From the NCBI RefSeq assembly GCF_040790665.1, contig NZ_CP160849.1, forward strand, positions 2,877,501 through 2,941,500: 64,000 nucleotides of DNA. Reading direction: 5' to 3'. The notes beneath the pieces are model-generated. The model saw only the letters and a program-made list of their open reading frames with translations. It ran no database searches and was not told the origin of the DNA. Position numbers and translations under genes: made by a program. Shown one piece after another: positions 6,901-24,726 of the stretch; the stretch's first letter is position 1; each line of letters starts with the position of its first letter. This stretch comes from Sulfitobacter pontiacus (GTDB lineage Bacteria > Pseudomonadota > Alphaproteobacteria > Rhodobacterales > Rhodobacteraceae).

Positions 6901-7794
6901 TTAGGCGACAGAGGCGTCGTAGATCTTGCTGATGTTCTGCCCCAGTGCCGTGTTGAACTCGGCATCCGACATCTTGACGTTCAGCCCTTCGGTCAGCGCA
7001 CGCGAGAAGCTGGCGATCATCTTGGGGTTTTGCGTCAAACGCGCGCAGGCGTCTTCGGTGGAATACCCACCCGATAGCGCCACGACCCGCAGCACATTGG
7101 GGTGATCCGCAAGGCTGTCATAAAGCCCCGCAACTTCTGGCAGGGTCACCTTGAGCATCACCAGTTCCTCCGCCGACAGCGTGGCCAAGTGCTTCTCGAG
7201 CTCGGATTTCAGGATGTCTTCGGCTTCCGCCTTGCTCTCGGAATGGATGTTCACCTCTGGCTCGATGATCGGGACCAGACCGGCGGCGCAGACGGTTTTG
7301 GCGACGGCGAATTGCTGCGCCACAACCGACGCGATCCCTTCGGCGTTGGCGGATTGGATGACCGACCGTTCCTTGGTGCCAAAGATACCGGCGGCTTTCG
7401 CGCGCTTCAGCAGATCGTCCAGCTCGGGCATGGGTTTGAGCAACTGCACGCCGTTTGCTTCGTCTTCCAGACCTTTGTCGATCTTCAGGAAAGGCACGAC
7501 GCCGCGGTCTTCCCATAGCAGTTGGGCCACAGGTTTGCCGTTAATCGTGTTGTCCATCGTGCGTTCAAACAGGATCGCGCCCAGAACTTTGTCAGAGGTG
7601 AAATCATCGGCCAGAATGATCCGCGCGCGCATGTCGTGCATGGCTTGAAACATCTCGGCATCGCCCGAGTAATCGGAAGGTTCAACGCCATAAAGGCTCA
7701 GCGCCTTGGGGGTCGATCCGCCCGACTGGTCCAATGCGGCCACAAACCCCTGCCCTGTTTCCATTTGTGTGCGCTGTGCGTCTGTCGTGGTCAT
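6901..7794 (-). CDS. fda: Class I fructose-bisphosphate aldolase
   Basis: This 297-residue Schiff-base aldolase cleaves fructose 1,6-bisphosphate into glyceraldehyde 3-phosphate and dihydroxyacetone phosphate, and runs backwards in gluconeogenesis. Motifs are AALDQSGGSTPKAL near residues 19-32, PIIEPEV at 175-181 and LKVTLPE with the likely Schiff-base Lys215. It belongs to the bacterial Fda group also seen in Staphylococcus, not to the metal-dependent class II enzymes. In a marine heterotroph that degrades sugars through Entner-Doudoroff, the main use is likely gluconeogenic. A 69-bp gap separates it from the upstream P450 gene on the same strand, long enough for its own promoter. Confidence 0.95.
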   Translation of the reverse strand: MTTTDAQRTQMETGQGFVAALDQSGGSTPKALSLYGVEPSDYSGDAEMFQAMHDMRARIILADDFTSDKVLGAILFERTMDNTINGKPVAQLLWEDRGVVPFLKIDKGLEDEANGVQLLKPMPELDDLLKRAKAAGIFGTKERSVIQSANAEGIASVVAQQFAVAKTVCAAGLVPIIEPEVNIHSESKAEAEDILKSELEKHLATLSAEELVMLKVTLPEVAGLYDSLADHPNVLRVVALSGGYSTEDACARLTQNPKMIASFSRALTEGLNVKMSDAEFNTALGQNISKIYDASVA

Positions 7795-7863
7795 GATGAT
7801 CCTGGCCCTTATTGATTCCGTCGAATGTTCGTTTAACGCATCTATTCCCGCGATGATATATCG

Positions 7864-9216
7864 TTAGCGCCGGACAAAGCGCAGCAAAATGCCGTCTTTT
7901 GAACGAACTGTCAGATGTGCCACGGGAACAGGTGGCTTTTCGCCGACAACCTCTATGCGGTAATCGCGCAGGATACGCGACAGGATCAACGGGCCTTCGA
8001 CCATGGCAAAGCCCGCCCCCGGGCAGACCCGCGCACCGGCGCTGAACGGCAGATATGCCTCGCGCTGGCATTTCTTGCCGTTCTCGCTGTGCCATCGCGC
8101 CGGATCAAACCCGTCGGGGTTGTCCCACAGGCGTTCGTGACGATGCAGATGCCACGGGCTGATCACCACCTGTGCCCCACGCGCCACGGTTCGGTCGCGG
8201 AACGTCGCGGGGCAGCTCGCTTCGCGCACCATCATCGGCACGGGGGGATAAAGGCGCAGTGCCTCGCGGAAGACATCGCGGCTTTGTTTGAGCTTGCCCA
8301 TAACCGCAAAATCGCACTGATCGATTGACTGCGCCTCTTCGGCCAGACGGTCCTGCCAGTCGGGATGGGTCGCCACCAGATACATCGCCCATGCCAGCGC
8401 CGAGGCGCTCGTTTCATGCCCTGCAAGAAAGAAGATCGCGACCTGATCGACCATTTCATCGGTGGTAAAAGTAGAGCCGTCTTCGGGGTCGGGCGTGGTC
8501 ATGATCTTGGTCGCCAGATCGTCGGGGGCGGTGCCCGCCTTGATCGCCTCCATCCGGTCGGCCGTCAGTGCGGTGATCAGTCGCCGGATCTTGGCGGCGC
8601 TGCGTTTAGTGTCGCGGCGGAACAACCGTGGCAGCCAGCGGGGCAACGGCACAAAGGCCGCGATGTTCAGGATCGGCTGGCTGCGTTGATAGGTTTTGAA
8701 TTCGTCAAAGACCTCGCGCGCCATGTGGTGTTCGATGGGTAGAGAAAACAACGTGCGAAAGATCACATCCGCCGCCGCGTGGCTGGTCTGCGCCTCCACC
8801 TCTAGCGGCGCGCCATCATGAGGCGCAAGCCGTGCCGCCGCTGCCTCTGCCGCGTCCCAGATGGCGGGGAAGGTTTCGCGCAAGCGGCCCCCTTCAAACG
8901 CGGGGTCAATGATGCGCCGCTGCCGTTTCCATATCGCCCCGTTGGTCAGGAACACCGAATTGCCAAGCAGCGGGCGCAATCCTTCGCCGATCCGGTCTGA
9001 CTTGGGATAATCGTCCGGGCGCGTCTTGAGCACGGTCTGGATCAGATCGGGCTGATTGATCAGATAACTGCGGAAGAACGGCGTCTTGAACTCTGCCATC
9101 CAGGCCCGATACAGCCGTGCGGGCTGCGCCGACAGGATGTCTTGGCGAAAGAGCCGCGCATAGCGCCAAAGCGACACTTTCGCGGGGCGGCTCTCGGGTT
9201 TGGGGGGCAGCATCAT
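7864..9216 (-). CDS. Cytochrome P450
   Basis: This 450-residue soluble bacterial P450 has all hallmark elements: the I-helix oxygen-activation motif AGHETS (265-270), the K-helix EALR (318-321) and the heme loop FSAGARVCPG (391-400) with Cys398 as iron ligand. No N-terminal membrane anchor is seen. The start ATG at 9216 overlaps the stop of the upstream membrane hydrolase gene as ATGA; a second ATG at 9213 is the alternative. No ferredoxin or ferredoxin reductase gene is nearby, so electrons must come from elsewhere. The motifs resemble the fatty-acid and alkane type group, but the substrate cannot be assigned. Coupling to the hydrolase suggests a lipid- or ester-related pathway. Confidence 0.95.
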   Translation of the reverse strand: MMLPPKPESRPAKVSLWRYARLFRQDILSAQPARLYRAWMAEFKTPFFRSYLINQPDLIQTVLKTRPDDYPKSDRIGEGLRPLLGNSVFLTNGAIWKRQRRIIDPAFEGGRLRETFPAIWDAAEAAAARLAPHDGAPLEVEAQTSHAAADVIFRTLFSLPIEHHMAREVFDEFKTYQRSQPILNIAAFVPLPRWLPRLFRRDTKRSAAKIRRLITALTADRMEAIKAGTAPDDLATKIMTTPDPEDGSTFTTDEMVDQVAIFFLAGHETSASALAWAMYLVATHPDWQDRLAEEAQSIDQCDFAVMGKLKQSRDVFREALRLYPPVPMMVREASCPATFRDRTVARGAQVVISPWHLHRHERLWDNPDGFDPARWHSENGKKCQREAYLPFSAGARVCPGAGFAMVEGPLILSRILRDYRIEVVGEKPPVPVAHLTVRSKDGILLRFVRR

Positions 9217-14607: not shown

Positions 14608-15174
14608 AAATCCATTTTGCACAGCTGCGCAAACAGCAGCCCCGGTGGGGCGCTGCGAGGCAGGGTATGTCTTGTCAGGGCGATGGGTGACGCGGCTAAA
14701 ACAGGGCCCAAAAGGCCGCCTGTCTGTCTGCTCTTGGCGTCTGCGCGCGTCATCGCGGTTCTTCTCCGACATGGGTGGTGCGTACCGCGCCCCCATATCC
14801 ATTAATTTACTGCGGTTGTCCGGCCAAAGGGACGGCGCAATCGTCAGCGGTTCTTGAGCCTTTTTTAAGGGCCTAATCGGTCTGCCTGGTCACCACATGC
14901 CGGGGAACCGAGGCATCGAAACTGTCTGGGGTCTGGTTTGCCATCCAAAGAGGCAAACAGTCCTACCTACAATTAACGGCAGAAGGCACCAAATGACAAT
15001 GGGAAATCGCGTTTAGCGGCTTTGCAGATACGGGGGCCGATAGCGGTATCACGCCCCCCGCCGCCTTGCTTGACAAGCGTCGGTGCTATGGGAAAAGCTT
15101 TGCCAGCGGGTTTATGCCCGTGCCGCAGCCCTGTGACGGGATGCACAAAAATAAGACAGATAAGGATGATACGA
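14608..15174. other. Long leader region of rne and promoter area of the lipoprotein gene
   Basis: This 567-bp gap holds no convincing conserved gene. On the minus strand it must contain the rne promoter and a leader of up to a few hundred bases, which in E. coli mediates autoregulation. Seen here are an inverted repeat GTTTGCC/GGCAAAC (14936-14942 and 14952-14958) and a 23-codon minus-strand reading frame (14944-14873) beginning MANQTPDSF. On the plus strand TTGACA at 15070-15075 could be a -35 box for the lipoprotein, without a clear -10. Confidence 0.4.
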
Positions 15175-15459
15175 ATGCATATTTCCCTGCGCGCAGCCCT
15201 GTGCCTGCCGTTTCTGGCGCTTGCCGCCTGCGAAGACATGAGCACGATCGGCGGCAGCGACCCCGAGGGCCCGTCCAAGCGCAGTTGCATCCGTGCCGTG
15301 GAAAAACATACCGGCAAATCGGGCGGTACGCTCAACACGACCATCCCTATCGTCGAGACGGGCCAGCATATTGTCGATATCCCCGGCGGCCCGTCGTGGA
15401 CCTGCTACACCGATGAAACTGGTGCAGCACGCGAGCTGATCGAGACGCGGCTCGGCTGA
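15175..15459 (+). CDS. Small lipoprotein of unknown function
   Basis: This 94-residue protein has a signal peptide (LRAALCLPFLALAAC) ending in a lipobox with the acylated Cys at about residue 20. The mature part is short, charged, and contains two further cysteines (SCIRAVEK and WTCYTDETG) that could form a disulfide. AAGGATGA at 15162-15169 supports ATG 15175. It is probably exported and attached to a membrane; there is no Asp at +2 that would clearly retain it at the inner membrane. It converges with dctD. I do not recognise a family. Confidence 0.75.
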   Translation: MHISLRAALCLPFLALAACEDMSTIGGSDPEGPSKRSCIRAVEKHTGKSGGTLNTTIPIVETGQHIVDIPGGPSWTCYTDETGAARELIETRLG

Positions 15460-15481
15460 GCCTGTCTGCAAAATGCGGCGC

Positions 15482-16816
15482 TCAGAGGTAATCCGAGCGC
15501 TGCAATCCGTATTTCGCCATTTTCTCGTTCAGCGTCCGGCGCGGCAGGCACAACTCCTCCATCACACTGGCGATAGACCCTTTGTGCCGGCGCATGGTAT
15601 TGTCGATCAGCATACGCTCGAAGGCTTCTACATATTCCTTCAGCGGCTTGCCGTCGGTGGTCATCACCGGCTGCATCTCTTCGTGGTCCGACATCAGCAG
15701 CGATGCGATAGAACCGGACCCGCGACGCGACTGCAACACGGCGCGTTCTGCCACATTGATCAATTGGCGCACGTTCCCGGGCCAAGGCGCTTGCAACAGT
15801 TGCGCGGCCTCTTGCGCGGAAACCTGCGGAGTCTCGCAGCCATATTCATCCGCGAATTCTTCGGACAAACGTGTGAACAACGTCAGAATATCCTCGCCCC
15901 GTTGGCGCAGCGGCGGCACGGTGATGCGCAGGGCGGCCAGACGATAGAAAAGGTCAGAACGCAGCGCATCTTCGGAGGTGCGCCCCGCTTCTTGCAGGTT
16001 CGAAATCGCAACGATCCGCGTTTCCGCAGGCGTGCCTTGGTCATTAATCGCACTCAGAAGACGGGCTTGCAGCGTCTCGCTGAGCGATTCAACACCTTCC
16101 AGCACCAAGGTACCGCCGCGGGCCTCCTCGATCGCGGGAAGCTGGGCGTCTTCTGGCATCATCGGACCAAACAAACGCTTGCTCAGCGCGTCTTCCTCTA
16201 GCGCGCCGCAGCTCACCAGCACGAACTTCTTGCCCGCGCGCGATCCCACGGCATGCAGCGCATGCGCCACCAGTGTCTTGCCCGTACCGGTTTCACCATC
16301 GATCAGCACGTGACCGTCGGCCTGACCAAGATCCAAAATATCCTCGCGCAGCCGTTCCATCACGGGCGAGCCGCCGATGAGCTTTTTCATCAGCTGGCTG
16401 CCGTCAGACAGCTCCCGACGCAGGGCGCGGTTGTCCATGACCAGACGGCGCGCGTTGGTGGCCTTCTTGGCCAGTTCGCTCATCCGGTCGGGGTTAAAGG
16501 GCTTTTCAAGGAAGTCGAACGCGCCGACGCGCATCGCCTCGACCGCCATGGGCACATCGCCGTGGCCGGTGATCATGATCACGGGCAGCGCACTGTCGGT
16601 CCCCATCAGCTTTTTCAGGAACTGCATGCCGCCCATGCCGGGCATCTTGATGTCGGAGATCACGATACCGGGGTAATCCGGCCCCAGCGTTTTCAACGCA
16701 TCCTCGGCGCTGCCGAACGTCTCTGTGTCATAGCCCGAAAGCGCCAGCCACTGGCTGATCGACTGACGCATGTCTTGTTCATCATCAACGATCGCGATTT
16801 TCATTGCCTGAGCCAT
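15482..16816 (-). CDS. dctD: DctD-like response regulator with a degenerate AAA+ domain
   Basis: The 444-residue protein has three domains: receiver (DDEQDM, phospho-acceptor Asp55 in ISDIKMPG, Lys105 in FLEKPF), AAA+ domain and a Fis-type helix-turn-helix (SVMEELCLPRRTLNEKMAKYG). Walker A is intact (GETGTGKT, 174-181) and an arginine-finger region SDLFYRL is present. However, the segment after RLFG that should carry GAFTGA reads PMMPEDAQLPAIEE, and Walker B is LVLEGVESL rather than LFLDEI. It may therefore not drive sigma-54 open-complex formation. It starts four bases after dctB ends, so the pair forms an operon. DctB/DctD normally control C4-dicarboxylate uptake; no dctPQM genes are in view. 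Confidence 0.85.
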   Translation of the reverse strand: MAQAMKIAIVDDEQDMRQSISQWLALSGYDTETFGSAEDALKTLGPDYPGIVISDIKMPGMGGMQFLKKLMGTDSALPVIMITGHGDVPMAVEAMRVGAFDFLEKPFNPDRMSELAKKATNARRLVMDNRALRRELSDGSQLMKKLIGGSPVMERLREDILDLGQADGHVLIDGETGTGKTLVAHALHAVGSRAGKKFVLVSCGALEEDALSKRLFGPMMPEDAQLPAIEEARGGTLVLEGVESLSETLQARLLSAINDQGTPAETRIVAISNLQEAGRTSEDALRSDLFYRLAALRITVPPLRQRGEDILTLFTRLSEEFADEYGCETPQVSAQEAAQLLQAPWPGNVRQLINVAERAVLQSRRGSGSIASLLMSDHEEMQPVMTTDGKPLKEYVEAFERMLIDNTMRRHKGSIASVMEELCLPRRTLNEKMAKYGLQRSDYL

Positions 16817-16820
16817 TGGT

Positions 16821-18581
16821 TTACTCTGCCGCCTGTGTCTTCTCTGTGCTGTCCATAATGGGCAGCTGCATTTCAAAAACCGCACCGCCATGTTGGCCGT
16901 TGCGGGCTGTCAGCCTGCCCCCCAGATCGGATACAATACCCGACGAGATCGCAAGCCCCAACCCGACACCATCGCCGGGCTGCTTGGTCGTGTAAAACGG
17001 CTCGAACAGGCTATCGAGATCTTCGATCCCGGGGCCATTATCGCGCACGGTAAGCGTCGCCGTCTCACCCGCTGATAGTATAATCTCTACCGTCGGGTTT
17101 CGTTCCGATTTGGTGGCATCCAATGCGTTGCGCAAGAGATTGACCAATACTTGTTCGATCCGCATGCGGTCCCCCATCACCTGAACAGGCTCTGCGGGCA
17201 GGATACGGTTGATCTGCACCTGACGCTGACGTAGCTGCGGCTCCATCATCGACAAGGCAGAGGCAAGCGCCTCCCCCATATCAAAGGGCGAAAACTGTTG
17301 CTGGCCCTTGCGCGCATAGCTTTTCAGCTGCCGCGTAATGGCCCCCATGCGTTCGATCAGATCGTCGATGCGCCCGAATGACGCCAACGCTTCCTCCAGC
17401 CGGTTGCGCTGCATCAACAGACGCGCGCCCGCCAGATAGGTTTTCATCGCGGCCAGCGGCTGGTTCAGCTCGTGGCTGACGGCGGCGGACATTTCGCCCA
17501 AGGCGGCGAGCTTGCTGGATTGTTCCAACGTCTGCTCGGCCACGGCCAAAGTCTGCTGCACCCGTTTGCGTTCCGCCACCTCGCGCTGAAGGGCGGCGTT
17601 CAGCGCGCGCAGCTCGGCGGATTCACGCTGAAACAGCGCGGCGCGCCCCGCCGTCCGACGGCTGAGAGCATAAAACGTCAACGCCAGCAGGATCGCAAAG
17701 CCCATCACCTCAAGCGCCAGTACCCCGTTCACCTTCTCGCGGACCGAAGCGTAGGTGGTGTAACTCGTGATCCGCCAGCCCCGAAACGGTATCCGTGACG
17801 ACAGACGCATCACCGCCTCGCCCTGCAGATAGGCATCGGCAGGCAATGCGGTCCAGTCGGCGGTGGCCTTGATCGCGCGCTCGATGGCGCTTTGCGGGGT
17901 CTGGTTCGACAAAGCCTCGCTTTCCGTCAGACCGCGCCAGCGCGGTTCGGTCGCCATGATGATGTCACCCGTGCTGTCAGTGACAATCACCGCATCCGAG
18001 ATACCGGCCCAGGCCCGTTCAAACCGTTGCAGATCCACCTCGGCCGCGATCACCCCAAGGTTGGTACCGCCTTCCTGAATACGGCGCGAATAGAAGAACC
18101 GGTAGCCGCCGGTATCGCGGGGAATAACGCTGAACACGGTCGAATTCGATCGCAGCGCGTCAACAAAATAAGCCTCTTGCCGGTGCGATGCCCCCAACCG
18201 GTTGCGGTCGGTCGCTGCCACCGTGCGCCCATCGATATCATAAAGCATCAAGGACGCCGCGCCGATCTCCTCTACAAAAGAGATCAATCGCTGGGTCGAC
18301 AGGGAGTAATCAGATCGGGTCAGCGCCTCGATCAAGGCGGGATCGCGCGACAAAAGCTGTGGCACAATCGCGTTCTGGCGCAGCTCGGCCAGCAGGTTGC
18401 CGCTGTAGAGCGCGATCCGAAGCTCGGCCCGGTTACGTGTGCTTTCGGTAAAGCGATCCGTCAGCAGCTTGTTGGTGACCGAAATCGTGGCCACCGCAAT
18501 GACCAAAAGCAAAGCAACCGCCAGCCGGACGCGCCAGCTGACAGATAAAGGGGCTTCACTAGAGGACGCAGACCGAAACAT
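16821..18581 (-). CDS. dctB: DctB-like C4-dicarboxylate sensor histidine kinase
   Basis: The 586-residue membrane kinase has one N-terminal transmembrane helix (about 19-38), a large periplasmic double-PAS-like sensor (to about residue 285), a second helix (290-306) and a coiled-coil linker. Then comes the dimerisation box with phospho-acceptor His370 in SAAVSHELNQPL, and the ATP-binding domain with NLLRNALDA, DNGPGI and GVGLGLAIS. This is the DctB architecture, where the periplasmic PAS domain binds succinate, fumarate or malate and controls DctD phosphorylation. It lies directly upstream of dctD. The unusual partner regulator makes the output uncertain even though the kinase looks complete. 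Confidence 0.88.
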   Translation of the reverse strand: MFRSASSSEAPLSVSWRVRLAVALLLVIAVATISVTNKLLTDRFTESTRNRAELRIALYSGNLLAELRQNAIVPQLLSRDPALIEALTRSDYSLSTQRLISFVEEIGAASLMLYDIDGRTVAATDRNRLGASHRQEAYFVDALRSNSTVFSVIPRDTGGYRFFYSRRIQEGGTNLGVIAAEVDLQRFERAWAGISDAVIVTDSTGDIIMATEPRWRGLTESEALSNQTPQSAIERAIKATADWTALPADAYLQGEAVMRLSSRIPFRGWRITSYTTYASVREKVNGVLALEVMGFAILLALTFYALSRRTAGRAALFQRESAELRALNAALQREVAERKRVQQTLAVAEQTLEQSSKLAALGEMSAAVSHELNQPLAAMKTYLAGARLLMQRNRLEEALASFGRIDDLIERMGAITRQLKSYARKGQQQFSPFDMGEALASALSMMEPQLRQRQVQINRILPAEPVQVMGDRMRIEQVLVNLLRNALDATKSERNPTVEIILSAGETATLTVRDNGPGIEDLDSLFEPFYTTKQPGDGVGLGLAISSGIVSDLGGRLTARNGQHGGAVFEMQLPIMDSTEKTQAAE

Positions 18582-20504: not shown

Positions 20505-20553
20505 AGGGGCGTTGTGGGAAACGGCAAAATCACCCATTTAGCGGAGCGTTTTG

Positions 20554-21567
20554 ATGTCCAACCCCCTCACCGATCTTCTGGCTGAAAAAGGCACGCTGCT
20601 GGCCGATGGTGCCACTGGCACGAACCTGTTCAACATGGGCCTGATGTCCGGTGATGCGCCAGAGATGTGGAACACCGAACAGCCGCAAAACATCATCAAG
20701 CTGTATCAGGGTGCGGTGCAATCGGGCAGCGATATCTTCCTGACCAACTCCTTCGGCGCGAATGCCTCGCGTCTGAAACTGCATGGCGCTGAAAAACGCG
20801 CCCATGAGCTTAGCCGCGTGTCCGCCGAGCTTGCGCGCGAGGTCGCGGATAAGGCCGGTCGCAAGGTCATCGTTGCAGGCTCCGTCGGCCCCACGGGCGA
20901 GATCATGGAGCCGGTCGGCCCCCTCACCCACGCGCTGGCGGTCGAGATGTTCCATGAAACCGCGGACGGGCTGAAAGCCGGCGGTGCCGATGTGGGCTGG
21001 CTGGAGACGATCAGCGCCCCCGAGGAATACCGCGCCGCCGCTGAAGGCTTCAAGCTGGCAGGGCTCGACTGGGTCGGCACGATGAGCTTTGACACCGCAG
21101 GCCGCACCATGATGGGCATGACATCCGAGGCGATGGTCGACATGGTGCATGACCTCGATTATGGCCCGCTGGCCTATGGGGCCAACTGCGGCACCGGCGC
21201 GTCGGATGTGTTGCGCACGGTGTTGGGGTTCGCCTCCAAAGGCATGCCGACGCCGATCGTATCCAAAGGCAACGCGGGCATTCCGAAATACGTCGAAGGC
21301 CACATCCACTATGACGGCACGCCCGAACTGATGGCCGATTACGCCGAGATGGCCCGCAACTGCGGCGCGTCGATCATCGGCGGTTGCTGTGGCACCATGC
21401 CGGAACATCTGGTGCATATGCGCGCCGCTCTCGACAGCCGGCCCAAGGGCGACGCCCCCACGCTGGAACAGATCGTGGAGGCCCTTGGACCGTTCTCGTC
21501 GGCCAGCGATGGCACCGATGGCGAAGGCCCCACCCGCGCACCACGCCGTGGCCGCCGCCGGGGTTAA
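20554..21567 (+). CDS. bmt: Homocysteine S-methyltransferase (betaine--homocysteine type, Bmt)
   Basis: This 337-residue zinc methyltransferase barrel transfers a methyl group to homocysteine to form methionine. ILADGATGTNLF-like residues 15-26 (LLADGATGTNLF), the zinc cysteines in GANCGTG (Cys212) and GGCCGT (Cys278, Cys279), and VAGSVGPTGE are visible. It corresponds to the N-terminal homocysteine module of MetH. ATG 20554 is preceded by GGAG seven bases away; the TTG at 20551 is not needed. The tail is Arg-rich. With the corrinoid protein 1.3 kb downstream it probably works as one piece of a split B12-dependent methionine synthase. Direct use of glycine betaine is the traditional annotation and remains possible. 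Confidence 0.85.
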   Translation: MSNPLTDLLAEKGTLLADGATGTNLFNMGLMSGDAPEMWNTEQPQNIIKLYQGAVQSGSDIFLTNSFGANASRLKLHGAEKRAHELSRVSAELAREVADKAGRKVIVAGSVGPTGEIMEPVGPLTHALAVEMFHETADGLKAGGADVGWLETISAPEEYRAAAEGFKLAGLDWVGTMSFDTAGRTMMGMTSEAMVDMVHDLDYGPLAYGANCGTGASDVLRTVLGFASKGMPTPIVSKGNAGIPKYVEGHIHYDGTPELMADYAEMARNCGASIIGGCCGTMPEHLVHMRAALDSRPKGDAPTLEQIVEALGPFSSASDGTDGEGPTRAPRRGRRRG

Positions 21568-22649
21568 TCCCCGAAAAGATCCAACTGCGCGCTCGCCCGT
21601 TTGGGCGGGCGGAACAGATCGCAGCGCATCGGCGGCAATAGCGTATCCAGCCCCAACCGTTTGACCGCCAAGGTAAACCGCTGCGCAATCATCTCGGCAT
21701 AGGGGCCTTCGCCGCGCATCCGTCGGTGCCAATTTGCGTCATATTCCTTCCCCCCGTGCATCTCGCGCAGCCGCGCCATGATGCGACCCGCGCGGTCAGG
21801 GTAATGCGCCGCCAACCATTCCTGCATCAAGGGCGATACCTCGCGCGGCAAGCGCAGCATGATCCAGCTGGCCGCGACGGCCCCCGCATCGCGCCCCGCT
21901 TCCAAAATCGTCTCAAGCTCGGGATCGGTCAGCGCCGGCACCATGGGGGACGCCATCACCCGCACCGGAATGCCTGCCTCTGCCAAACGTGCGATCACCT
22001 GCAACCGGCGTTTCGGTGCAGGCACCCGCGGCTCCATCAACCGTGAAAGCGTCGCATCCAGCGTCGTCACCGACACGCCCACGCGGCACAGCCCGCGCGC
22101 CGCCATATCCGACAGAATATCAATATCCCGCTCGATCAGACTGCCCTTGGTCACAATGGCAACGGGATGGTTCGCATCTGCCAACACCTCTAGCAACGCG
22201 CGCATAATCCGATGCTCTTTCTCGATCGGCTGATAGGGATCGGTATTCGTGCCGATCGCAATGGGGGCGACCTGGTATTTCTTCGCCGCCAACTCTCGTT
22301 TCAACACCTCGGGCGCCTCGGGCCGCGCGATCAGCCGCGTCTCGAAATCCAGGCCCGGCGACAACCCCAGATAGGCATGGCTTGGCCGCGCAAAACAATA
22401 GACACAACCGTGTTCGCACCCGCGATACGGGTTAATCGACCGGTCAAACGGCAGGTCCGGCGACTGGTTGTAGCTGATCACGGAGCGCGGAATTTCAACG
22501 CTTACTTGGGTGCGCAAGACCGGCAAAGGGTCATCATCGCCCGCCCATCCATCGGCCACAGCGCTGACGGTCAGCGGCTCGAACCGGCCCGGGCGGTTGC
22601 TGGATGTGCCCCGTCCGGGCAGTCTGTATTTGCGCTGTGCCTGATCCAT
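21564..22649 (-). CDS. PA0069-family radical SAM protein
   Basis: This 361-residue protein has the radical SAM cluster motif in YRGCEHGCVYCFARPSHAY (Cys-x3-Cys-x2-Cys), followed by GTNTDPYQPIEKEH and IVTKGSLIERDIDIL. These are marks of the PA0069/Rv2578c family, distantly related to spore photoproduct lyase. The substrate of the family is not known to me; a DNA-related role is often assumed. The C-terminus ends SAQLDLFGD. It converges with bmt so closely that both stop codons overlap in TTAA (21564-21567), and its start is divergent from the corrinoid gene. It is probably an independent gene placed inside the methionine cluster. Confidence 0.88.
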   Translation of the reverse strand: MDQAQRKYRLPGRGTSSNRPGRFEPLTVSAVADGWAGDDDPLPVLRTQVSVEIPRSVISYNQSPDLPFDRSINPYRGCEHGCVYCFARPSHAYLGLSPGLDFETRLIARPEAPEVLKRELAAKKYQVAPIAIGTNTDPYQPIEKEHRIMRALLEVLADANHPVAIVTKGSLIERDIDILSDMAARGLCRVGVSVTTLDATLSRLMEPRVPAPKRRLQVIARLAEAGIPVRVMASPMVPALTDPELETILEAGRDAGAVAASWIMLRLPREVSPLMQEWLAAHYPDRAGRIMARLREMHGGKEYDANWHRRMRGEGPYAEMIAQRFTLAVKRLGLDTLLPPMRCDLFRPPKRASAQLDLFGD

Positions 22650-22851
22650 TCAAATCTTTTGGAACAAACTAGGAACATGGTCAAGTATATTGGCCCAAGC
22701 CATTGTTTTACAGCACGATTGAGCGTAATTTCCCACCAACCAAAGCGTCGCACGCGGTGCCGGGTTTGTCGCAAAAAGCACGAAGCTTTCGACGTGTATG
22801 TGACAAAAAGGCACAAGCCCGCGCGGGTGAGTTAACCGATGAGGAACGACT

Positions 22852-23550
22852 ATGTCGGATGAAGACGAAATTATCCTTGCCGATCTGGACGACGAAGAAC
22901 TTGTTCAGCAGATGTTTGATGATCTCTATGACGGTCTGCGCGAAGAGATCGAAGAAGGGGTCAATATCCTGATCGAACGCGATTGGGCACCCTATGATAT
23001 TCTGACCAAGGCGCTTGTTGGCGGCATGACCATCGTCGGGGCCGACTTCCGCGACGGTATCCTCTTTGTCCCCGAAGTGCTTCTGGCTGCGAACGCGATG
23101 AAAGGCGGCATGGCGATCCTAAAGCCGCTGCTGGCCGAAACCGGCGCGCCACGCGTGGGCAAGATGGTGATCGGCACGGTCAAGGGGGACATCCATGACA
23201 TCGGCAAGAACCTTGTGTCGATGATGATGGAAGGCGCGGGCTTTGAGGTTGTCGATCTTGGCATCAACAATTCGGTCGAAGCCTATCTTGAAGCGATGGA
23301 AACCGAAGGGCCGGACATCCTTGGCATGTCCGCGCTGCTGACCACGACCATGCCCTATATGAAAGTCGTGATCGACACGATGGTCGAACAGGGCATCCGC
23401 GATGACTATATCGTGCTGGTCGGCGGGGCCCCGTTGAACGAAGAATTCGGCAAGGCCATCGGTGCCGATGCCTATTGCCGCGATGCCGCCGTCGCGGTGG
23501 AAACCGCCAAGGAATGGGTCGGGCGGAAACACAACGCCGCAAAGGCGTAA
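22852..23550 (+). CDS. Corrinoid (B12-binding) methyl carrier protein, MtbC/MetH-like
   Basis: The 232-residue protein has the helical cap (LVGGMTIVGADFRDGILFVPEVLLAANAM read in parts at residues 56-84) and the cobalamin Rossmann domain with the base-off signature D113-x-H115-x-x-G118 (GDIHDIGKN). The SALLTTTMPYM loop and VLVGGAPLN hold the nucleotide tail. It matches the middle modules of MetH and the corrinoid proteins of methylamine/methanol systems. His115 should ligate cobalt. It probably shuttles a methyl group to Bmt encoded 1.3 kb upstream. GAGGAACGACT precedes the ATG. No cobalamin riboswitch is recognisable in the 200-bp leader. An intrinsic terminator follows directly. Confidence 0.92.
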   Translation: MSDEDEIILADLDDEELVQQMFDDLYDGLREEIEEGVNILIERDWAPYDILTKALVGGMTIVGADFRDGILFVPEVLLAANAMKGGMAILKPLLAETGAPRVGKMVIGTVKGDIHDIGKNLVSMMMEGAGFEVVDLGINNSVEAYLEAMETEGPDILGMSALLTTTMPYMKVVIDTMVEQGIRDDYIVLVGGAPLNEEFGKAIGADAYCRDAAVAVETAKEWVGRKHNAAKA

Positions 23551-23568
23551 GCAGTTGATCTAGAACAT

Positions 23569-23599
23569 AAAGGCCCTTCCCTACCGGAGGGGCCTTTTG
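23569..23599 (+). terminator. Intrinsic terminator between corrinoid and DUF1638 genes
   Basis: AAAGGCCCTTCC (23569-23580), loop CTACC and GGAGGGGCCTTT (23586-23597) form a 12-bp stem with one G-U pair, followed by TTTT. It ends just before the DUF1638 gene and should reduce read-through into it. Confidence 0.8.
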
Positions 23600-23615
23600 C
23601 ATGACGGAGCGTGAG

Positions 23616-24254
23616 ATGAAGCCGCCCTCGGACCGTGATCTGACAGAAAAAGGCCTGCCGCTCGCCCCGCAGACGGGCCGCATTCTGCTGATCGCCTGCG
23701 GGGCGCTGGCGCGGGAAATTCTCGACCTGAAAGAGGCGAACGGCTGGTCGCATCTGGACCTGACCTGCCTGCCCGCCAAGCTGCATCTCTACCCAGAAAA
23801 AATCACCAACGAAGTCCGCGCAGCCGTTGAGAAGCACCGCGACAAATACAACGATATATTCGTTGTCTACGCCGACTGCGGCACCGGCGGATTGCTAGAG
23901 GTGGAGTGTGAGAAACTTGGCGTGCAGATGGTCGCCGGGCCGCATTGCTATAGCTTTTTCGAAGGCAACGACCGCTTTTCCAAGATCTCGGAGGACGAGA
24001 TTACCACCTTTTATCTCACCGATTTTCTGGTCCGCCAGTTCGACGCTTTCATTATCAAACCCATGGGGCTCGACCGGCACCCCGACCTGCGCGATATGTA
24101 CTTCGGGAACTACGAAAAGCTTGTGTATCAGGCGCAAACAGATGATCCCGCGCTCACCGCCAAGGCGAAAACATGCGCTGATAGGCTCGGCCTTGCCTTT
24201 GAACGGCGCTTTACCGGCTACGGCGATCTGGCGCGCACGCTCAAGGCGCTCTGA
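23616..24254 (+). CDS. DUF1638 family protein, probable corrinoid-system partner
   Basis: This protein of about 212 residues contains ILLIACGALAREILDL, VVYADCGTGGLLE, MVAGPHCYSFFEGNDRF and FIIKPMGLDRHPDLRDMYF. Conserved Cys and His residues (ACGAL, DCGTGG, GPHCYSF) could bind a metal or cofactor. It matches DUF1638, which occurs beside corrinoid methyltransferase genes in archaea and roseobacters; its biochemical role is unknown to me. The first ATG (23601) is only three bases past the terminator hairpin. The second at 23616 has CGGAG at the right distance, so I use it. Location suggests a part in methionine synthesis or in reactivation of oxidised cobalamin. Confidence 0.8.
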   Translation: MKPPSDRDLTEKGLPLAPQTGRILLIACGALAREILDLKEANGWSHLDLTCLPAKLHLYPEKITNEVRAAVEKHRDKYNDIFVVYADCGTGGLLEVECEKLGVQMVAGPHCYSFFEGNDRFSKISEDEITTFYLTDFLVRQFDAFIIKPMGLDRHPDLRDMYFGNYEKLVYQAQTDDPALTAKAKTCADRLGLAFERRFTGYGDLARTLKAL

Positions 24255-24256
24255 TC

Positions 24257-24277
24257 TTCATTTTGCCAAATAAACTC
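24257..24277 (+). repeat. Intergenic repeat, copy 3 (box only)
   Basis: TTCATTTTGCCAAATAAACT followed by C is identical to the inverted copy at 41670-41690. It starts two bases after the DUF1638 stop, between two converging genes (DUF1638 and sufE). Confidence 0.6.
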
Positions 24278-24315
24278 AAATGGCACAGCCGTCGCCACAC
24301 CCCACAGGCGCGCGT

Positions 24316-24726
24316 TCAACCCTGCTGTGCAGCCTCGCCGCGAATCCGTTCGATCATCGCGGTCAACCCGTTCGACCGCTGCGCTGAAAGATGTTCGTTC
24401 AACCCAAGGCGCCCCATCTCTGCGCGGGCATCGATGGCGCTGACCTCGGCCGCGGGCACGCCGTTATACAGTTTTTGAAGCACCGCAATCAGGCCTGAAA
24501 CGATCATCGCATCGCTGGCCCCGTCGAAATGGAGCACGCCGTCCTCGAACTGCGTATGCAACCAGACCTGACTGGCGCACCCATCTACTTTGGTTGCGGG
24601 CACGCGCAGCTCTTCGGTCAGCGGCTCCATCGCCTTGCCCAGATCGATCACATGGCGATAGCGGTCTTCCCAATCGTCCAGAAACTCGAAATCCTCGACC
24701 AGTTCTTCAAATGCCTCTGTCGCCAC
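24316..24726 (-). CDS. sufE: SufE-like cysteine desulfuration protein
   Basis: This 136-residue protein accepts sulfur from the SufS cysteine desulfurase for iron-sulfur cluster assembly. The acceptor is Cys50 in KVDGCASQVWL; DFEFLDDWEDRYRHVIDLGK near the start is also typical. The start is read as GTG 24726 (M-ATEAFEELV), with AGAGGGA before it; the ATG at 24783 would add 19 residues that do not look like SufE. The remaining suf genes are not in the window, so this is a stand-alone copy. Confidence 0.9.
   Translation of the reverse strand: MATEAFEELVEDFEFLDDWEDRYRHVIDLGKAMEPLTEELRVPATKVDGCASQVWLHTQFEDGVLHFDGASDAMIVSGLIAVLQKLYNGVPAAEVSAIDARAEMGRLGLNEHLSAQRSNGLTAMIERIRGEAAQQG

Follow-up and report, generated by a model that had tools for sequence, protein, structure and literature searches.

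The mtgE-mtgC-DUF1638 locus

An ORF check of the window (the whole stretch of 64,000 nucleotides of the Sulfitobacter pontiacus genome that was analysed) recovered the open reading frames at the positions given in the earlier note on this DNA. The first gene, mtgE (20551..21567, plus strand, ATG at 20554), encodes a homocysteine S-methyltransferase module of 338 aa, equivalent to MetH module 1, which matches S-methyl_trans (PF02574) with 195.3 bits over residues 16-294 and carries the motifs DGATGT at 19, NCG at 212 and GGCCG at 277, which we take to be zinc motifs. The second, mtgC (22852..23550, plus strand; 232 aa), encodes a stand-alone corrinoid protein with a cap and a Rossmann B12-binding domain (PF02607 and PF02310; B12-binding 89.5 bits, B12-binding_2 62.4 bits); it scores 187 bits with NF047996 (corrin_MtgC_2), below the cut-off of 370, and has DIHDIG at 113, presumably the cobalt-histidine motif. 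The DUF1638 gene (23601..24254, plus strand; 217 aa) encodes a protein that matches PF07796 with 119.3 bits (curated cut-off 27), and no further meaningful Pfam or NCBIfam family was detected in it. The ORFs and the Pfam matches agree with the proposal in the earlier note that a split MetH, with homocysteine methyltransferase, corrinoid protein and DUF1638, lies here within 3.7 kb.

Between mtgE and mtgC there is a divergent gene (21564..22649, minus strand) for a radical SAM protein of the PA0069 family (NF033668, 504 bits). This neighbour is probably not part of the function of the locus, and in Phaeobacter growth in minimal media does not depend importantly on its counterpart, according to Price 2018 (PMC5764234).

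A terminator-like hairpin (23569..23597, plus strand; 12 pairs and a loop of 5, then T) that folds at -21.0 kcal/mol separates mtgC from the DUF1638 gene and ends 3 bases ahead of the start codon of the latter; the two genes therefore need not share one transcript. Of the 72 relatives compared, 36 carry a similar hairpin ~30 nt beyond their mtgC stop codon; 50 mononucleotide shuffles gave a mean of 1.8 and a maximum of 4. No RNA switch was matched by Rfam near the genes of the locus, and no sigma-70-like promoter was found within 22600-24400. We regard it as virtually certain that the locus supplies mtgE, mtgC and DUF1638 for the split methionine synthase / glycine-betaine methyltransferase (MtgBCDE), an already known B12-dependent system.

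Remaining parts of the methionine synthase

The folate and reactivation modules are absent from the locus and, as had been anticipated, genome searches located them elsewhere: a pterin-binding (methyl-folate) protein of MtgD type (C1:2627939-2628649, minus strand; NF005719, 395.6 bits) and RACo, a RamA-like activase (C1:2597159-2597971, minus strand; genome profile search). Moreover, an MTTB gene (C1:2754975-2756468, plus strand; PF06253, 787.6 bits) is a candidate MtgB and, judged by its sequence, could be the matching partner for glycine-betaine demethylation. Whole-genome searches gave one copy each of DUF1638, the MtgD-type protein, RACo, MTTB and the stand-alone corrinoid protein. Specifically, mtgC is the sole stand-alone corrinoid gene among three PF02310 matches, the other two being acyl-CoA mutases, and the second pterin-binding match is a dihydropteroate synthase.

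According to the earlier note, a complete metH elsewhere that supports growth alone would speak against a split enzyme. Searches for a complete MetH or MetE in the genome found neither: the MetH reactivation domain PF02965 had 0 matches (7 of 14 control genomes matched), a RamA/RACo activase being present instead of this domain of classical MetH, and the MetE family PF01717 had no match. Since MtgD, RACo and MTTB are single and PF02965 and PF01717 matches are lacking, the split Mtg set is probably the only methionine synthase of the genome.

Comparison with published systems

The three-part MetH that the earlier note mentions for Phaeobacter corresponds to what is reported for Phaeobacter inhibens (PGA1_c13370, c16040 and c13350, with the RamA-like c15200 and the DUF1638 gene c13340), where methionine rescues mutants in all three MetH parts, in the RamA-like gene and in the DUF1638 gene, and where the authors argue against polar effects and against a role in B12 synthesis (Price 2018, PMC5764234). 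As in P. inhibens, the homocysteine module, the radical SAM protein, the corrinoid protein and DUF1638 are encoded together here, the pterin module and the RamA-like protein elsewhere, and PF02965 is lacking; unlike in P. inhibens, for which Mausz 2025 (PMC12478193) reports a core-MetE homologue, there is no PF01717 match in the genome studied. The same paper describes MtgBCDE of Ruegeria as serving both methionine synthesis and glycine betaine demethylation, the corrinoid and folate parts being used for both: mutants in mtgC or mtgD require methionine and do not grow on glycine betaine, and the RamA and DUF1638 proteins are more abundant on N-osmolytes. This glycine-betaine role of the corrinoid and folate parts had been missed in the earlier note.

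Like Ruegeria pomeroyi DSS-3 (Mausz 2025, PMC12478193), the present genome has all of the MtgC, MtgD, MtgE, RamA, DUF1638 and MTTB parts, and by analogy the set is expected to serve both methionine synthesis and the use of glycine betaine. The two differ in that there is one MTTB match here versus at least two in R. pomeroyi, and in that mtgE, mtgC and DUF1638 are clustered here whereas the R. pomeroyi tags separate mtgE (SPO1884) from mtgC (SPO2160) and DUF1638 (SPO2162). A cluster on pSymB of Sinorhizobium meliloti (strain Ak57) shares bmt/MtgE, MTTB, the corrinoid protein, DUF1638 (55% identical), an MtgD-type protein and ASKHA (RACo), but there all parts lie in one region together with MetF and a MetV-like gene.

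The split methionine synthase system itself is already in print, and the locus is one more genome for a system that matters for marine methionine supply and glycine-betaine turnover. What is new here are three invariant cysteines in DUF1638, its tie to RACo, the corrinoid gene upstream of it and a kinase-fused branch. The earlier note had considered the biochemistry of DUF1638 undescribed and had missed its methionine phenotype, already published in Phaeobacter (Price 2018, PMC5764234). The main gain concerns DUF1638 as a protein with a phenotype but no assigned function.

Distribution and gene neighbourhood of DUF1638

In the class survey (376 genomes), DUF1638 was detected in 72 genomes, RACo in 84 and both in 69; all 52 DUF1638-bearing genomes with a completeness of at least 95% have RACo. 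Conversely, 15 of the 84 RACo genomes gave no DUF1638 match (7 with only a shorter RACo type and 3 with only fragments; six of the 15 have a completeness of at least 95% or close to it), and hence RACo can occur without DUF1638. MTTB accompanies DUF1638 in 69 of the 72 genomes, i.e., exactly as often as RACo does, and the link of DUF1638 could therefore be to the whole methyltransferase set. PF02965 is also present in 36 of the 72 DUF1638 genomes, while DUF1638 is missing from 171 of the 207 genomes with PF02965. The tie to RACo bears on the choice of an assay for DUF1638.

The recurrence of DUF1638 beside corrinoid genes, put forward in the earlier note, was borne out. In the class survey, a corrinoid gene directly precedes DUF1638 on the same strand at 65 of 74 places, and at six of the 74 there is none within ~7 kb upstream. 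The grouping goes beyond chance: among related loci, many of which are cut by contig ends, a corrinoid gene lies upstream on the same strand in 76 of 80, with the radical SAM gene in 62 and MtgE in 55; a corrinoid gene is present in 58 of the 59 loci longer than 14 kb. Operons on named replicons read corrinoid - DUF1638 - ... - MtgD - RACo. The partnership of DUF1638 with the corrinoid protein is well supported by gene context; the chemistry proposed for it is an inference. No viral copies of DUF1638 were found.

Conserved cysteines and predicted structure

Across 135 distinct aligned DUF1638 sequences, C33, C93 and C116 are the sole columns that are identical throughout. In the AlphaFold2 model (pLDDT 88.9, pTM 0.78) C33 is at the end of a strand, and C93 and C116 are in loops a few residues past strand segments; we infer that the three come together in space. 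The invariant cysteines point to targets for mutation.

Foldseek with the model returned nothing at E ≤ 1e-3. With VIA-align the top Z was 7.8, below the caution line of 8, and nitrogenase-like and racemase-like chains led the list: the nitrogenase component-1 chain 9d9u_B (Z 7.8, below the line; rmsd 2.6, 84 aligned), the further nitrogenase-like chains 1mio_B (6.6), 5koj_B (6.5) and 9onk_B (5.7), all below 8, and the racemase-like 3uhf_B (Z 6.9, below 8; rmsd 5.4, 167 aligned) together with several others at 5.7-6.3. Nitrogenase component 1 has a three-cysteine iron-sulphur site, and glutamate/aspartate racemase two catalytic cysteines. Because the fold searches gave no convincing match, a [4Fe-4S] site in DUF1638 would be a guess. 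There was likewise no convincing solved relative: the best profile match, MmoQ (E 0.013), covers only the part behind C116, and the kinase-domain profile gave nothing at E ≤ 1 in this search.

A kinase-fused branch of DUF1638

Some histidine kinases begin with a divergent DUF1638 domain. Their genes closely follow a corrinoid gene and an MtaA-like methyltransferase gene, the second of which directly precedes the DUF1638 domain; this domain has conserved thiols, and no RACo was seen beside this branch in the loci examined. One example is the DUF1638 kinase of Azoarcus sp. KH32C (AZKH_RS26485), which is accompanied by a cobalamin-dependent protein and a URO-D protein. These operons resemble the mec cassette of dichloromethane-degrading anaerobes (histidine kinase MecA, a corrinoid protein and an MtaA/CmuA-family protein) in being a corrinoid/methyltransferase cluster with its own sensor kinase, but MecA has a PocR domain instead of DUF1638, as far as the accessible text goes (PMC9768040). 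In the full-text literature searched (few subscription papers, no preprints) there was no earlier account of a corrinoid/MtaA/DUF1638 kinase, and the combination of corrinoid protein, MtaA-like methyltransferase and kinase-fused or kinase-adjacent DUF1638 domain would be an apparently undescribed sensor class.

Tentatively, with the chances slightly against it, DUF1638 might be a module that reads corrinoids and has a three-cysteine centre, used for reductive activation in B12 methyl transfer and also in a class of sensors. These sensors would detect methylated compounds by actually transferring the methyl group to a B12 protein, whose state is then signalled to the kinase. On this sensor reading, methylated compounds would be sensed via B12 chemistry and not by simple binding. 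The kinase fusions give a further and simpler way to see what the DUF1638 domain responds to.

Possible roles of DUF1638

The overall explanation that we favour, and consider quite probable, is an Mtg locus where DUF1638 docks on the corrinoid protein and aids its reactivation by a three-cysteine centre, with one branch reused as a sensor. MtgD would transfer a methyl group from methyl-folate to the corrinoid on MtgC, and MtgE from there to homocysteine; together with MtgB (MTTB), MtgC would also accept methyl groups from glycine betaine. Oxidised cobalt on MtgC would be re-reduced by the RamA-like RACo and ATP, and DUF1638 probably shares in this reductive activation, presumably by docking and electron transfer, through a centre built from the invariant cysteines that could be an iron-sulphur cluster, a metal ion or redox thiols. 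The divergent branch would have been recruited as an input domain that watches the corrinoid/methyltransferase pair. That DUF1638 acts on the corrinoid protein jointly with RACo is likely; that it does so via a metal or cluster centre is an almost even bet.

DUF1638 could instead be a cofactor-handling chaperone, which loads cobalamin onto MtgC-type proteins or removes the upper ligand by a cysteine, the human CblC/CblD pair being a functional counterpart. The strict tie to corrinoid genes and the conserved cysteines are in keeping with such a role, and so is the need for DUF1638 in methionine synthesis, given that Price 2018 (PMC5764234) argued against B12 synthesis as the cause of the mutant's phenotype. 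However, the distribution of DUF1638 follows that of the reductive activase RACo and of MTTB, not that of corrinoid proteins or of B12 use at large; it is absent from most genomes that have an ordinary MetH, and a loading factor would be an odd choice of sensor domain. We consider a chaperone unlikely.

Less likely still is a role as a regulator only, which would control Mtg expression or assembly and affect methionine indirectly. Sensor-kinase relatives exist and the hairpin ahead of the DUF1638 gene suggests separate dosing, but the stand-alone protein has no DNA-binding or kinase domain (Pfam) and its gene stays next to corrinoid genes, in metabolic operons that also contain MtgD and RACo.

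We likewise give little credence, marginally less than to a regulator, to DUF1638 as a methyl acceptor, in which a zinc-bound cysteine, as in the Ada protein, would take the methyl group from the corrinoid as a shunt or signal. The MtaA-like enzyme, known relatives of which shift methyl groups from corrinoid to thiol, precedes the DUF1638 domain in the sensor operons, where this domain has its conserved thiols. An MtaA-like gene is nevertheless beside Mtg-type DUF1638 at just one of the 74 places, though Phaeobacter still needs DUF1638, and the three cysteines are dispersed along the chain, whereas those of the Ada site are not.

Finally, that the mtgE product is a true betaine--homocysteine methyltransferase acting alone, and the locus no split MetH, is very improbable despite the NCBIfam equivalog of that name (NF005718, betaine--homocysteine S-methyltransferase, 571 bits, cut-off 338), since the MtgE / S. 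meliloti bmt type is argued to work via MtgC and to lack the residues with which human BHMT binds betaine (Mausz 2025, PMC12478193), the Phaeobacter counterpart is required for methionine without betaine (Price 2018, PMC5764234), and the genome encodes the corrinoid protein, the folate module and the activase.

The split methionine synthase and its missing parts

The earlier note had read three genes of the window, those for a homocysteine S-methyltransferase (mtgE), a stand-alone corrinoid protein (mtgC) and a DUF1638 (PF07796) protein, as a split B12-dependent methionine synthase. All three are at the positions it gave, with the expected domains and motifs, and the interpretation is supported, the missing parts being present in the genome and matching published systems. 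The own-genome searches covered 3.55 Mb (99.96% complete). Of two PF00809 matches, one is a methyltransferase of the MtgD type, which scores 395.6 bits against NF005719, and the other dihydropteroate synthase; profile searches gave single copies of RACo (the RamA-like activase), MTTB and DUF1638. The folate and reactivation modules thus lie elsewhere, as predicted. Neither the MetH reactivation domain (PF02965) nor MetE (PF01717) was found in this genome, and its three B12-binding matches are MtgC and two acyl-CoA mutases, and a complete metH, the alternative raised by the note, was not found. Given the single MtgD/RACo/MTTB/MtgC set and the lack of PF02965 and PF01717 matches, this genome probably has no methionine synthase other than the split one. 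The gene preceding mtgD matches methylenetetrahydrofolate reductase weakly, with 20 bits.

The locus itself is already known, since the system is covered by Price 2018 (PMC5764234) and Mausz 2025 (PMC12478193). The former is on the three-part enzyme of Phaeobacter inhibens, a genus named in the note, where phenotypes of the RamA-like and DUF1638 genes were rescued by methionine; the available excerpts of that paper offer no proposal for DUF1638. In Ruegeria pomeroyi, MtgC and MtgD act in both methionine synthesis and glycine-betaine demethylation (Mausz 2025), and the excerpts of that paper have a single mention of the DUF1638 protein, with a predicted part in recharging cobalamin. In the third paper with the term DUF1638, it appears only in a table entry for a S. 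meliloti protein. What is new is the cysteine signature of the DUF1638 family and the family's use in sensor kinases linked to corrinoid proteins.

A PA0069-family radical SAM gene (21564-22649, minus strand) lies between the first two genes of the trio. Of 80 relatives, 62 keep it beside the split synthase, although Price 2018 found no phenotype for it. The closest DNA records, ranked by identity of DUF1638 (66-80%), mostly bear titles of Rhodobacteraceae or Roseobacter-type bacteria, and one near record titled Exiguobacterium is probably a mislabelled assembly.

DUF1638 follows corrinoid genes and the activase

The class survey gave 74 places with DUF1638, viewed with about 7 kb per side where the contig allowed. 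In 65 of them the gene immediately upstream, in the same orientation, is a corrinoid gene, which bears out the claim that DUF1638 recurs next to corrinoid proteins. Three of the remaining nine have less than 1.3 kb of upstream sequence, and in six (four from one genus) no corrinoid gene was present within the upstream ~7 kb. Stretches longer than 14 kb (n = 53) hold RACo in 35, MtgD in 34 and MTTB in 26 cases. Named examples of the order corrinoid - DUF1638 - (virulence-factor family gene) - MetV-like - MetF - MtgD - ASKHA/RACo, with small differences, are S. meliloti pSymB, Azoarcus pAZKH and Paracoccus aminovorans plasmid IV. Between DUF1638 and mtgD, the virulence-factor gene and the MetV-like gene next to MetF are a recurring feature (14931-16901 of the pSymB locus L162; counterparts in loci L151, L164 and L165); they were found in 47 and 22 of the 74 stretches, respectively.

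Across the class (376 genomes) DUF1638 is present in 72, RACo in 84, MTTB in 80 and PF02965 in 207 genomes. DUF1638 occurs together with RACo in 69 genomes (genus-level count, the sole treatment of relatedness, 49/52) and with MTTB in 69 of the 72. The three DUF1638 genomes without RACo are 74, 79 and 92% complete; at ≥95% completeness RACo is present in 52/52. Fifteen RACo genomes without a DUF1638 match speak against a strict rule: seven have only a shorter RACo type, three only fragments (one of which scores below the cut-off of the family), and another 5 to 6 have full RACo. The excerpted figure of Price 2018, with 158 alphaproteobacteria, gives much the same picture. DUF1638 is not tied to loss of the MetH reactivation domain, because 36 of the 72 genomes hold PF02965. 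DUF1638 is also present at loci L155 (G125) and L156 (G313), in genomes without an MTTB match; at L155 a more distant corrinoid gene (44% identical) and then an MtaA-like gene are found.

DUF1638 in corrinoid-linked sensor kinases

The main new point is the fusion of DUF1638 to histidine kinases. The survey of the phylum covered 398 genomes, of which 57 had a PF07796 match of any strength. Seven weak matches among these are N-terminal domains of longer proteins, and five of these are fused to histidine-kinase domains: L142 (5060-6904, minus; recognised by its ATPase domain only), L143 (1694-3448, plus), L144 (5496-7415, plus), L145 (111-2648, plus) and L146 (5361-7256, plus). The other two (L147, L148) run into contig ends. 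PF07796 scores of the seven domains are low (26-44 bits, hmmscan), L146 with 26.1 bits being below the cut-off of 27 (28.9 in the genome search). Profile-profile comparison of the seven kinase domains with 26 stand-alone proteins gave an alignment of 188 columns with E 1.1e-6 and probability 91. In 6/6 loci with room, the kinase gene is directly preceded by a corrinoid gene and an MtaA-like gene, L145 being outside this count as it starts at a contig end. Beyond the survey, Azoarcus sp. KH32C pAZKH (L167) encodes, in this order, a cobalamin-dependent protein, a URO-D family protein and a kinase (7001-8773, plus) whose DUF1638-like domain scores 22.5 bits, below the cut-off, with all four cysteines present; formylmethanofuran dehydrogenase and quinoprotein genes are nearby.

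In other classes of the phylum the operon is RACo - corrinoid protein - MtaA/CmuA-family (URO-D) protein - DUF1638 - sensor protein, complete in all four stretches long enough (L149, L150, L152, L153); three further genomes of this type, covered by short loci (L134, L137, L139), show the segment corrinoid - MtaA - DUF1638. Histidine-kinase domains are present in the downstream protein of L150 and L152, and only PAS/GAF domains were found in that of L149 and L153. Taken together, the module is therefore kinase-fused in some genomes and kinase-adjacent in others, and a corrinoid gene accompanies it wherever the neighbourhood was visible.

MmoQ (PDB 3p3q, 3ljx), labelled response regulator, matches the DUF1638 part behind C116 weakly (profile E 0.013-0.015); this may be chance, but a methane-related regulator would fit the sensor branch.

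Invariant cysteines and a possible role

The alignment covers 135 distinct sequences: 61 from genome_contigs, 60 further stand-alone proteins, 7 second-context ones (beside a sensor protein) and 7 kinase domains. Its sole columns identical in all rows are C33, C93 and C116 of the window protein. C56 is found in nearly all proteins of the methionine synthase/glycine-betaine (Mtg) type but in 0/9 second-context rows; 7/7 kinase domains have a cysteine a few residues beyond this position. The AlphaFold2 model (pLDDT 88.9, pTM 0.78, 61 sequences) is an alpha/beta domain where strands end at C33 and C56, and C93 and C116 come after strand segments, a placement as expected for a site on one sheet edge, where the cysteines would meet in space. 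Foldseek against solved structures gave no relative at E ≤ 1e-3, and neither it nor VIA-align gave a clear one; the VIA-align values for a nitrogenase-like reductase subunit (best, Z 7.8) and racemases (Z 5.7-6.9) are hints only.

Since DUF1638 follows the corrinoid gene, activase and methyltransferase set and has a published methionine phenotype, it is most economically read as taking part in the reductive activation of the corrinoid protein, on which it would dock. As its working part, the invariant cysteines suggest a cluster, metal or thiol centre, which might pass electrons or keep the cobalt ready for activation. In the sensor branch, such contact would let the protein register which state the corrinoid protein served by the MtaA-like enzyme is in.

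A hairpin between mtgC and DUF1638

A terminator-like hairpin (23569-23597; 12 pairs, short T run) lies in the mtgC/DUF1638 gap and ends 3 bases ahead of the DUF1638 start codon. A similar hairpin about 30 nt past the mtgC stop is present in 36 of 72 relatives (shuffle mean 1.8), in many with a different stem sequence. As judged from sequence, it probably ends most mtgC transcripts, leaving DUF1638 lower or separately driven, and "operon" should for this reason be used with care for the pair. The hairpin also overlaps the likely ribosome-binding site of DUF1638.
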